Below, one piece after another: positions 31,375-37,300 of a stretch of 64,000 bases of DNA. Made by a program: the position numbers and the translations under genes. Source of the DNA: Paralvinella palmiformis (Eukaryota > Annelida > Polychaeta > Terebellida > Alvinellidae); contig JAODUP010000311.1 in the NCBI GenBank assembly GCA_025642065.1, positions 326,001-390,000 of the forward strand, read 5' to 3'. The notes beneath the pieces were generated by a model that was given only the letters and a program-made list of their open reading frames with translations, was not told the DNA's origin and did no database searches. Within the stretch, counting starts at the first letter, position 1; every line of letters begins with the position of its first letter.

Positions 31375-34300
31375 TTACTTTCCTTTCTTTGCTTTAATTT
31401 TTCTGCTATAGAACTCTAGTTCCTTGCCTTCCAAGATGTAGCCATCACATCTGCCACACCGTCCCGGTCTTGAGGCAATACACGCTGTGAACAGACATAA
31501 TATGATATTAACAAATCATGAAAGCTTCCTATCATTACACTGCCAACAAATTGGTTCATATCAACCAAAGATAATAAACACCACAAACTGTAAATACTAG
31601 CTGTAGACAGTCGTCAGTGTAACTATGACAGTGTCGGCTCACTGAGAGAGATCACACGGCATCAAAACGACACCAACCCGCTCTTGCGGACAAGTTTTCA
31701 TCACTCGACTTGGTCAACACATTATCGACTTGGTCAACACATTACAAACCAGTCAATAATGGTCAGAATTCTAAATGCAGTAGCTGAAACATGTACGGTT
31801 TGGCATGCTGCCAGAAGCCAATTGGCTCCTGTATACTTACCGTATAACTTCCCTGTTGCAAACTGTTCCTCCAGTCCTGGCTCTATCTTTGCCACTTTGC
31901 GACGGTCATCATACTTAGCTTGAGTCTTCTTGGAACGTTTCTTGTTAAAGAGCTCCTCTTCAGCCTCAGTCTAACAACATAGAAATAAACCGATAAAAAA
32001 TACGATACTCTAGTATTGATGAACCCTTTTTACGAAGAGGTCACATTATTAAATAAATATCATTGTATAGAATGTGAATTAATTGTGCATTTACCAGTTT
32101 TGCCCCCTTCTTCTTGATCAGCGGCATGGCATAATGTGCCTCATACCATTGTCTAAATGGAGTGGCATCAATCACCACAATGCAGTTTTTAACAAGTGTT
32201 TTAGTACGGACCAACTCATTACTGCTAGCGTTGTATACAACATCTGTTATACGAGTCTTCTTGGTGATGGCTGGAAATATTGAAACAAAATAATAGTAAG
32301 AACTGACATCAAAGCAACCTTATCTAACGGAGATGCTGGCATGTTAGAGATAACTTTATATATAACAACCAAGTCACCACAATGTGTACAACTTCCAAAA
32401 CCACACACAAGGGTAGAAAATGTACACGATCTACACCCTTCGGAAGTGTACATATGTAAATGTATAGTATAAAGACGTATTTAACAGATGGCCTCAGTAA
32501 TAATTTCGAAGGTCTTAACCTCTCCCGTAATGTGAGAATGGGAGTGAGTGATTAATGGCTACTCTACTTTTTCAACATATAGACCGGATTATCACAATCA
32601 AAGTAAATATTTTCCCTCAATGAGGTTGTTGCCATATATAGTATAAAATGAACTACTGTAGAGGGATAAACATACAAACAGTTCAAAGGAGCCTTACTGG
32701 ATACCAGTATAACAATATAAAATCCCAGCAAGTTACATGTGGGCATTATAGGTTTACTTAGATGGCTTTAAGTGGACAGGTCTTTTTAAACCAGCTGATC
32801 ATTCATAAAAATAAGCATATCAGCATCTACAAAAGGAAACATCTTCATCTGTCAACCTCAATACTGTACAAATTACAAGCAACAAAACTCTTCAGAAGTG
32901 GTCATGTTCTGGAAGTGGCTTACAGTGCCTGAAGGCAATCAGCATATTGCAGAAAGTATGAGTTGAGTCATATAGTTTTGTCATTCATCTCAAGGAATCA
33001 TATTCACGCAAGTTGTATTATGATTGTAATCATGATTACATAAAATGTAACCTGAATCATAATCGATTATATTAATTATTAATGGAGTTCTATTCATGGT
33101 AATGTGAAGTAAACATAATTGATTACTTTGGTCCTGAAAACGCTCCATGCCTGCATTACTCACACTAGACAAAAGGCTAAGTGACAATTGCCTAGGAAAA
33201 CATATCCCAGCCAGATCTAAACTAACAATCTGGAAATTTGTAGTGCAGTGCTCTAACCACTGGAATGCACTCATATAAGTGTGAAATATACACTGATTGA
33301 GATGATTGTGATACCAGTACTCAGAATTACAACAATGAGACCAGAGCTCTAAGCTGTAATTAACCCATGTTACTTCAGAATAAATGCATCCTCAACATCA
33401 ATACTCTGTCGAAAGATGGTGATGTAAAATATTCATCATCAGCAACATCCATCACATTAAATACCAGTCATACTGGTCACTGCAATAAAAATACTTAATG
33501 TCAGCTGTTGGGAAGCAGATACTTTCTTCACAATCAACAAACCTTAACAGAATTTTAGTACCAATTCTTATTTCAAATTAACCGTTTCTCTATGCTTGCT
33601 ATCAGTGAAAGCTTCTCTATTATCACACAGTTTGTGTATGTTACATATTAGTATAATACATGTTAAAATTAATGCTGAAAAAAACAAAAGGCAGTTTTTC
33701 TACTTTAAAAGAATGAATGTCACCTCAGCACAATATTATCTTCAACATCATTGCTCTGTCGAAAGATGGTGATACAGTGTTCATCATCAGTAACATCCAT
33801 CAGATGCTAATCCCAGCTCTATAACACACGTTAGTTCTCCACAAGCAAATGCAATACAGGGTTTCCCCTGCTATATAACAAGCAAATATGCAGACAGTGT
33901 GACTACTAATGGCACCAACTTAATTTTAGTATTGGCTCCCAACTGACAAAGTGGCTGCCTTGTGTGCACAGCACTCTCCATGCTATGCCATTGGATGATT
34001 TGTAGTGATTAATTTACCATTTAATTTTTTTAATTCAGAAATATTTCTTCCATGACAATCCTATTTGGAATATAAACTACTCGGATAGGTATTCCAAGTA
34101 GATACTCTGAGTACTTACTCATGGTAAAAAATGGAATTGATAAATTTCATGTGGAATTGACCCCATGTCTGTTTTCTGGTCAACCTGAAGTATTGTAATT
34201 TCTCCCCATCAAACTATAGTTCCTTGATGAGATATGGTATGCTCCTTGTGGAAGCCAGTTCCTGTTTATGGTATTTTAGAGCATTTCTAATGTACAAATA

Positions 34301-37300
34301 TGTTTCGGAAGAGTAAATGACAAACACACCTGGGTTTTTTTGTTATCCATTCTGTATTTCTATTGTATTGCCATGTTCTTGGCATGAAAATATTTGACCA
34401 AAAAAAAGCCTGAAAGAGTACAGGAAATCTTTTATATCGAATCACATGATACTTTGTGTAGATAAGCAATAGGTCAGGCCCCGGATCACCACGACTAACT
34501 CTGTCCTTTCAGCTATCGCCTGTACTGCCTCGCAATCCTTTTTACCCAGGGGAAAGACTGCAATATATTCCACCTCCACTGAAACTAAGACGAAAACCTC
34601 AATGCTGAAAAAACTAATGGCAGTTTTTCCTGCTTTAAAAGAACTAATGAATGTCACCTCAGCACAAATGTATCTTCAACATCATTGCTCTGTCGAAAGA
34701 TGGTGATACAGTGTTCATCATCAGTAACATCCATCAGGTGCTAATTGCACCTAAATTTTCATAGTTGTCTGAACATTGGTGAGGTTAACTTGCATGTCGA
34801 GTTATTTAGCCCAGCCACTGATTATACCTGGGACACGGACACAGACAATCAAGAGGTGAACCTATGGCCATGACGACTAGATGATTAATAGGATGTGATT
34901 CGATTTGGGGCAATAACCGATTATTGAAACCATAACAAAAAAATTCTTCAAAATAAGCGATAATTCTGTGGGAGCAGCTTCTACTTGAAGCACACTATGA
35001 AGCCTTACTGGTTGTTGTCTTGTAGTAAGTGTAATTAATGAACGTTACTTCAGAAGATATGCACACTTCAACATTATTGTTCTGTCGAAAGATGGTGATG
35101 TATAAGATTCATCATCAGTAACATTCATCGGGACATGTAAATAAATTACTAATATGAAGCTAATGCCATAAAAATATTGATTTATAAATGATCCGACAGC
35201 TTTTGATATTAAATCTATCACTATATATAATAATATGGTAAACTTCAGCAATGCCAAATATTTAGCATAAAAACTCCTAATAATAATTACAAACTATAGC
35301 TGATATAATAAGGAATCAATCCAAATTACTGTAGGGTGCCTACCAACAAATGAACATGAAAATGTATTTGTTTAAATAGCTGCTTCTGTAATGAAAACAG
35401 TTTGTGATTTATTGTCTGGTTTGTAGGAGTAGAATAACACGGGCCTGACTATGTATGAAATCTTCGTGATTATACTTGTCAGTCTTGAGATGGATGATTT
35501 ATGGCCACTTTTGTGCACATGGTAGGCTAAATGGCCGATTGTCAACCTTGAGAGTTCGTAGTAGTGAAATTGGTCTTTTCAGACAACACTAATATTGCAA
35601 AAGAACTGGTCAAAACAGCCTTGTATGTTATTGTAATATGTAAAGCAAACTACAGCAGATCCCCCCCCATATTAACATGGACCAGTATAACACAGTCAGA
35701 ACTTGGACCCCAATTTGGGGCATGAAACCAGTCACTGACAGATAAAAAAATTCTAAATAATTTGAACGCGTTTTCAGTTTGTAATTCATGCAGTTTCGCC
35801 AGTATAGTATATATGATCAAAACAGGTCTTTTATGCACAAAATATGATTTTTAACTGCAATAAAGAAAACATATGCAATAGCTCTGAATTAACAAAAAAG
35901 AATCAAACTTATTTAGTGGATGATGATTCATGTTTTACAGCCACTTTTGTGCACATGGTAGGCTAAATGGACTGATTTAGTGGATGGAATCATGGTAGTG
36001 TTTAATGAAGGTTGTGATCAATATATCTACTCCTGGCTAATATGTGGCCATTGACTATGTTTTATGCATGAAGTACAAAAACTGTGTAAACACGTTCAAA
36101 TTATTTTGAAATTTTTTATCAGTCAGTAATGGATTTCATGTGTTATACTGGTCAATGTTAAAATGTGAATCTACTGTAGTTTTCTTTACGTATTCCAATA
36201 ACATACAAGACTGTTTTGACATTTTGTTTGCAATAGCAGTGTTGTCTGAAAAGACCAATTTCACTTAATAAGACTGAATTTTCCCCATGCACGATGCTTC
36301 TCAATAATCACACACAAGGATGATCCTGCATATGCTCAGACAATATGGTACTAGTAAGAATAGGGATATTCTTGCAAAAAGACATGAGTAAATAATGAAT
36401 GCTACTTCAGAAAGGCAATAGTTCAACATCATTGTTCTGTCGAAAGATGGTGATGTACGACTCATCATCAGTAACATTCATTAGATCTTACAATTCTAAT
36501 TAACCAGGAATGGAGTTTTAACCCCAGTTAAACCTTTTCCACCTGTAGCACCCCAGCAAGCCTACCGCCGGCCACCCTTACAAAGCTCTAGACAAACCTT
36601 TTGAGACATCGTTGTGACTAAGTTACCCCCCAATGCATTTCAGCAAATCTGGCAGAATAATGCTGTCATTCATGGACATCATTTCTATGTTTACAGCTTG
36701 CATTTTGGTGGAGTGAATAGATTTTTATAATTTATTTAAGTTTTAGGACGCGTTTGTCTGGATCAAGATGGAGATCGCTTGTTGATGCATGTGATAATGA
36801 TGAGGAAGATTTCCATGTGTTTACTGTGGAAGAAGGGTCTGATGTTGATTTAGACATTGTGGGCAAGAGTGAGTCTTGCATTCGGACAAATAGCTGTCAG
36901 ACAACACTTTCAGTGACAATGGTGGGACTTATCTTTCACTGTCTTCTTTTAATATTTTATGAAGAGCACAGGAATAATTTTTTAATGAATTTACCATTCA
37001 TGGGGGGGGGGCTGCTTGTACATATTCATCTGAAAACGGCACATTTTGTGATTCTATGCAAAACTGAGTGATCCGTATCTATTTTTACATAATTTTGTAA
37101 AGATATCAGGTATGAGCTGTGTGCCTTAGGGAAAGAAAAAGCATGGCTGGGGCTGGTCTAAGTGGGAAAGAGTTTTTGGCCCTACCCTTTTATTCAATTT
37201 GGTTGCTACTAGTACCTGGGTTCTACTGTGACTGTGTATTGGTGATATCATTATTAAACTTAATACTATTTATTCCGGGCTACTTTCATTTACACCTTGT

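Follow-up and report, generated by a model that had tools for sequence, protein, structure and literature searches.

Five box C/D small nucleolar RNAs (snoRNAs) that carry the same guide lie in the third intron of RPS8, a ribosomal protein gene of the annelid Paralvinella palmiformis. The window analysed comprises 64,000 nucleotides (nt) of contig JAODUP010000311.1 (positions 326,001 to 390,000; GenBank assembly GCA_025642065.1). From their sequence, the five elements are almost certainly same-guide paralogues of the box C/D class directed at the A1511-type site of the large subunit (LSU) ribosomal RNA (rRNA). We further consider it probable (about 0.75) that all five are working copies which were duplicated within intron 3, would be co-transcribed and cut free, and would guide 2′-O-methylation by fibrillarin at the A1511-equivalent position.

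The six coding exons of RPS8 (Table 1), when joined, give an uninterrupted open reading frame (ORF) of 208 amino acids (aa) whose product is 100% identical to P. palmiformis protein P0005. The claim of the first-pass annotation that one RPS8 intron of about 5.6 kb contains the five copies was borne out, as all of them fall within intron 3. Aligned over 102 columns, they have in common an invariant TGATGATGA that includes the C box ATGATGA (5/5) and an invariant D box CTGA (5/5). The D′ box is CAGA in all five, degenerate relative to CUGA, and the C′ box reads TGATGTTGA in four copies and TAATGTTGA in copy 2. C and D boxes, a terminal stem, the internal C′/D′ boxes and an antisense element are thus present in each, and the boxes and stems ascribed earlier to the five minus-strand copies were all found. 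The distances from the end of the D box to the 3′ splice site are 4136, 2779, 2388, 1454 and 1104 nt for copies 1 to 5, so that even the nearest copy is, as had been reported, more than 1 kb away. The canonical animal layout is one snoRNA per intron at ~70–80 nt from the 3′ splice site; here there are five, at 1104–4136 nt.

Table 1. Features of the RPS8 locus and of a second snoRNA array (positions in the window unless a locus is named; bp, base pairs).
Feature	Position	Strand	Details
Copy 1, box C/D snoRNA	36393..36483	minus	terminal stem 14 bp; RF00535 28.9 bits
Copy 2, box C/D snoRNA	35037..35129	minus	terminal stem 13 bp; RF00535 32.9 bits
Copy 3, box C/D snoRNA	34644..34737	minus	terminal stem 15 bp; RF00535 36.1 bits
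Copy 4, box C/D snoRNA	33712..33801	minus	terminal stem 13 bp; RF00535 34.1 bits
Copy 5, box C/D snoRNA	33367..33448	minus	terminal stem 8 bp; RF00535 33.5 bits, RF00055 34.2 bits
D′ guide, copy 1	36441..36453	minus	TCACCATCTTTCG; identical in all five
D′ guide, copies 2–5	35086-35098, 34694-34706, 33760-33772, 33410-33422	minus	same 13 nt as copy 1
RPS8 coding region	31375..40704	minus	6 exons: 40704-40701, 40474-40368, 38003-37904, 32270-32095, 31970-31841, 31484-31375
RPS8 intron 3 (host intron)	32271..37903	minus	5633 nt, GTGAGC...TTCCAG; from splice sites and the 208-aa ORF
SNORD46, RPS8 intron 5	31608..31711	minus	44 bits vs gathering score 40; single copy
Candidate cassette exon (unproven), between copies 3 and 4	34330..34409	minus	3′ splice site 11.9 bits, 5′ splice site 10.0 bits
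RPL7A intron array	L033:3530-6688 (C632)		3159 nt; five SNORD14-like and two snR60-type snoRNAs

A stretch of 14 nt at the D′ guide is invariant across the copies. In all five the guide forms 13 of 13 Watson–Crick pairs with pieces of eukaryotic LSU rRNA (L018, L019 and L020). With CAGA as the D′ box, the base five positions upstream of it lies opposite the A in brackets in ACCCGA[A]AGATGGTGA and pairs with it, which is the expected A, and the predicted methylation target is the A equivalent to human 28S A1511. The three pieces were fetched by an exact pattern containing the target site, which we take to be conserved in eukaryotic LSU rRNA; because of this selection the agreement of three out of three is no independent test. 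Their assignment to eukaryotic LSU rRNA by Rfam is independent of the fetching pattern. Two other targets were rejected: a SNORD96/G1509-type target, as the D′ register points two bases further, to the A, and a conserved D-side guide, as 12 of its 14 columns are variable and the copies share no rRNA target. In the published tables, U51/U32a (Am1511) and snR39/59 (Am805 there) target this same A (PMC3511168), U32A/B/U51 and snR39/snR59 are tabulated for the same site (PMC2653536), and the snR39/snR59 site is given as A807 (PMC5295604). L018, L019 and L020 come from microbial assemblies with eukaryotic rDNA, presumably contamination, and L018 also has three group I intron matches. At the end of an IMG/VR viral contig, ~120 bases (L017:3310-3430) resemble eukaryotic LSU rRNA by eye, perhaps in a chimera; no Rfam match at its gathering score was found there.

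In E-value mode all five copies match the Rfam family RF00535 (snoMe28S-Am982) end to end, at 28.9–36.1 bits relative to a gathering score of 49. The RF00055 (SNORD96) model scores 24.8–34.2 bits, below its gathering score of 43, and in copy 5 slightly exceeds the RF00535 score. The RF00535 matches belong to clan CL00054, which includes U51/U32a and snR39/59 (PMC3511168). The fly snoRNA shares with the copies the guide UCACCAUCUUUCGAC, the D′ register for the A982/A1511-type site and the C/D architecture. It differs by a CUGA D′ box and a closing stem of 3 bp, versus CAGA in all five copies and 13–15 bp in four of them, and the copies furthermore share one intron. As their scores stay below the gathering score, the copies are called guides of the same sequence for the same site, not members of RF00535. 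The model scoring of each copy that had been proposed yielded full-length matches in every case, but not at the level set by Rfam.

The assembly was searched as a whole (594,056,205 bases in 2597 contigs, ~594 Mb). The pattern TGATGA-N3..16-CACCATCTTTCG has exactly five matches in it, all in RPS8 intron 3, and the reversed pattern used as control has none. A DNA search with copy 4 as query, by a method that is not exhaustive, returned the same five only (E ≤ 0.001). Chance similarity was excluded on these three results. The genome search with RF00535, in which 68 of 132,831 first-look candidates were scored, gave at least 11 matches to E 10. Five of the best six are the copies, and the other six loci are without the 13-nt guide; such weak matches are meaningless because 9 of 14 control genomes also give them at E 10. 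The model R2 scores the five copies at 102–114 bits, by construction, followed by copies 1 and 2 on the opposite strand (32.3 and 26.0 bits), and over the window and the six loci its best outside match has 22.1 bits (L014). Since intron 3 holds the sole exact C-box-plus-guide sites of the assembly, the animal probably relies on it for methylation of the A1511 site, each transcript containing five templates.

Of the 41 alignment columns that hold boxes and guide, 2 are variable, as against 22 of the 27 spacer columns (Fisher p 4e-11; gapped columns scored as variable). By this contrast all copies look selected. Outside the stems the flanks are unrelated in 19 of 20 comparisons (10 pairs, both sides, 60 mononucleotide shuffles each; z ≤ 2.2). 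The sole exception is found downstream of copies 3 and 4 (z 7.5), whose common unit spans 34752-34593 and 33818-33665. By this pattern of likeness, the array is old with one younger duplication, and copies 3 and 4 are its youngest pair. Successive local duplications within the intron would have led to the five copies. A dispersed repeat carrying the copies was rejected, there being only five genome-wide with unrelated flanks. A large imperfect inverted repeat (35563-36265; arms 84–93% complementary), similar to a miniature inverted-repeat transposable element or a foldback element, lies between copies 1 and 2 and lengthens the intron. A stretch around 33140-33270 resembles a tRNA and includes an A-box-like motif; by eye it may be a short interspersed element. 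ARAGORN called no tRNA in the window.

The terminal stems were analysed over 13 aligned pairs, in which 61 of 65 cells are standard pairs, a proportion that falls to 25–60% when the columns are slid by 1–3. Seven pairs vary on one side only, four are invariant and two depart by broken cells alone. Stem energies of copies 1–4 are equalled by 0.03–0.33% of 3000 random placements within the intron. The inner hairpins of the automatic RNAalifold structure were left unused. A terminal stem often compensates for a position far from the branch point, as PMC10234308 states citing earlier work, and most expressed human intronic snoRNAs lie beyond the assumed optimum distance (PMC10234308). By analogy, such compensation fits copies 1–4, and copy 5 less so.

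Same-intron arrays are not confined to RPS8. Five families, a small chosen sample that gives no rate, were searched genome-wide (RF00535, RF00016, RF00049, RF00309, RF00093). SNORD14 gave one match above cut-off on contig C1847 and five consecutive ones below it on C632 (53.5–56 bits vs 64); one more match, of 26.6 bits, was disregarded. The row of five lies in an RPL7A intron that also has two snR60-type snoRNAs above cut-off, seven snoRNAs in total. The three snR60-type genome matches at E ≤ 0.1 are all in this locus (L033), and so is the one genome match of RF00049. The exons flanking the array and the next exon encode 101 aa that align without gaps to residues 166–266 of the solved L7a/eL8, so no coding exon is missing inside the intron. 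The SNORD14-like cores are identical at 88–95 of 95 positions, by which the array is younger than that of RPS8, and copies a and d are alike across several hundred flanking bases (675/765). The flank comparisons a-b, b-c and d-e, self-matches of overlapping windows, and c-d, a partial overlap, were excluded. Both arrays consist of same-strand C/D paralogues in one intron of a ribosomal protein gene, that of RPL7A differing by its younger age, its shorter SNORD14-like stems and a last member at 104 nt from the 3′ splice site. As far as these two loci tell, the layout is not unique to RPS8 and the genome tolerates it. Upstream in L033, SNORD24, another snR60-type snoRNA and two SNORD36 matches lie, by eye, in further RPL7A introns. 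The textbook layout is found for SNORD18, whose two matches (E ≤ 0.1) lie on either side of an RPL4 coding exon, one per adjacent intron, the first at 75 nt from the 3′ splice site. An in-gene contrast to the RPS8 array is provided by SNORD46 of intron 5, with 129 nt between its D box and the 3′ splice site. A perfect 20-bp tandem duplication (31705-31744) overlaps the 5′ end of SNORD46 and doubles the 5′ half of its stem.

Several observations weigh against five working guides. All five copies score below the gathering score of every Rfam family, RF00535 included. The exact 20-mer for the animal's own 28S rRNA is absent from the assembly, and pairing was judged on L018–L020 instead. The genome search used the exact pattern, which a guide with a mismatch would escape, and the likeness between copies could partly reflect gene conversion. 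Copy 5 has a stem of 8 bp with two of the aligned 13 pairs broken, and its energy is equalled by 10.6% of 3000 random placements in the intron. Shuffling of stem columns gives no support (500 of 500 pair equally well), since two-sided changes occur in no stem pair. In RPL7A, the SNORD14-like copies have stems of only 4–10 bp at 371–3015 nt from the 3′ splice site; a long stem is thus no general requirement, and the idea that distance constantly demands one was dropped. Apart from the route of release, one or two copies might be functional and the rest decaying. Duplicates often decay, and the stem of copy 5 is weakened; but none of the five departs in its guide or its C, D′ and D boxes, in contrast to freely changed spacers and flanks, and we regard decay as unlikely.

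For their release, the copies would be transcribed within the RPS8 pre-mRNA, and the proteins of the small nucleolar ribonucleoprotein (snoRNP) would assemble co-transcriptionally on each self-contained unit, aided in copies 1–4 by the terminal stem of 13–15 bp. Exonuclease trimming alone would free only the outer ends, so that additional splicing or cleavage would be required to obtain five free snoRNAs. Cleavage between units, whether by an endonuclease or through a rare splicing event, would admit exonucleases, and each snoRNP would be trimmed free. This route of assembly on each unit and cutting between units is put forward tentatively, at a little under even chances. The layout had been taken earlier to imply splicing-independent processing, own promoters, or unannotated exons between copies; none of these is forced, since intronic clusters are a recognised category. 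Splicing-independent or stem-supported assembly is plausible for copies 1–4 with their stems, but weaker for copy 5, and does not extend to the RPL7A array with its short SNORD14-like stems. Strong processing hairpins were rejected, as the best of the 130-nt windows scanned have z values of −2.7, for one below copy 5, and −2.6, for one that separates copies 3 and 4. The inverted repeat at 35563-36265, between copies 1 and 2, could fold into a large hairpin, and no comparable repeat was found between the other copies. If the excised intron were trimmed from its ends only, the product would be a long non-coding RNA of ~3.1 kb with snoRNA ends (sno-lncRNA), with copies 1 and 5 as its caps and five snoRNPs along it. 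The prerequisite of such RNAs is two snoRNAs per intron, the outer snoRNPs halting the trimming (PMC4234469, PMC11028025), and the lack of a striking fold in 130-nt windows between copies (best z −2.6) or of an obvious endonuclease hairpin agrees with it. However, seven were detected in human H9 cells though 48 snoRNAs share introns (PMC4234469), the weakest stem belongs to the outer copy 5, and guide constancy in the three inner copies points to free guides; a sno-lncRNA therefore appears quite improbable.

With unannotated non-coding exons between them, the copies would sit in shorter introns if RPS8 had an alternative transcript. With hand-entered splice-site matrices, one strong candidate was found (34409-34330), whose 3′ splice site scores highest in the intron and whose sum is reached by 1.5% of 200 Markov sequences. 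Intron 3 has 14 candidate exons, and 5.5% of 200 Markov sequences have as many. A pyrimidine tract ending in CAG, similar to a 3′ splice site, lies 54 and 50 nt past the D box of copies 3 and 4 (34593-34658, 33665-33724) and was duplicated together with them. The single candidate, however, separates copies 1–3 from copies 4 and 5 and splits the array once, so that such exons could not reduce each intron to a single copy. For copy 5 the distance of 1104 nt to the 3′ splice site would not change, and other 5.6-kb pieces of the window, some of which may contain real exons, give similar sums (23.9, 23.0). We hold this explanation to be decidedly improbable, and a recursive-splicing site at 34828 was rejected, 45% of 200 Markov sequences equalling it. 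Least probable by far is an own promoter for each copy. Other eukaryotes do have independent snoRNA genes (PMC11028025), yet no support was found here: the upstream 250 nt are unshared, all ten pairwise comparisons being within noise (z ≤ 2.2; sequence similarity only, no promoter-motif scan), and every copy has the orientation of the host.

The statement that animals usually carry one snoRNA per intron holds as a rule, but one to which intronic clusters are a recognised addition (PMC11028025), and 48 of 400 annotated human snoRNAs share an intron (PMC4234469). Duplication in cis is on record, either into neighbouring introns or in tandem inside one gene (PMC3412847, PMC2653536). Human SNORD32A/B and SNORD51 and yeast snR39/snR59 guide modification at this LSU adenosine, A1511 in human and A807 in yeast, and redundancy recurs in yeast with two genes (PMC5295604, PMC2653536, PMC3511168). 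The two yeast genes have separate, paralogous hosts, with one in an intron of RPL7A and the other in an intron of RPL7B (PMC5295604), as opposed to five in one RPS8 intron. Local duplication within a ribosomal protein gene is also seen in chicken RPS8, with U38 in introns 4 and 5 and U40/U46 in introns 2 and 3 (PMC2653536), though in separate adjacent introns. Several snoRNAs per intron are described in rice, Drosophila, a Plasmodium pair and human (PMC2780460, PMC2656528, PMC4234469); the RPS8 array differs by comprising five same-guide C/D paralogues over 3.1 kb, all more than 1 kb from the 3′ splice site. In the mainly openly accessible literature, seen in part, we found no animal intron described as containing five C/D copies with the same guide, and, among the 10 of 25 matches listed for annelid snoRNAs, no paper on the subject by titles and abstract openings.

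Elsewhere in the window, a 725-aa ORF on the plus strand (46112-48289) is 40% identical to the P. palmiformis RAP-domain protein P0002. Stretches on the minus strand (60360-61139) match P0002 as well, two of them at 100% over 37 aa (60683-60793) and 27 aa (60360-60440). The two form a divergent paralogue pair in opposite orientation. Together with the identity of RPS8 to P0005, the 100% matches point to P. palmiformis or a very close alvinellid annelid as the source of the window.

The branch-point distance rule for intronic C/D snoRNAs derives from work on vertebrate cells. With five snoRNAs in one RPS8 intron, seven in one of RPL7A and a textbook arrangement at RPL4/SNORD18, a single genome offers a natural test of snoRNP release from long introns. 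As the same C-box-plus-guide pattern occurs nowhere else in the assembly, the RPS8 array also lends itself to a clean test of whether the level of rRNA methylation is set by the number of guide copies. A broader view, which we regard as doubtful, is that introns of ribosomal protein genes may serve in this animal as polycistronic snoRNA precursors, cut between their members rather than yielding one snoRNA per lariat. The dose of guide would thereby be raised, possibly as an adaptation of ribosome assembly to vent temperature, a link that is speculation.

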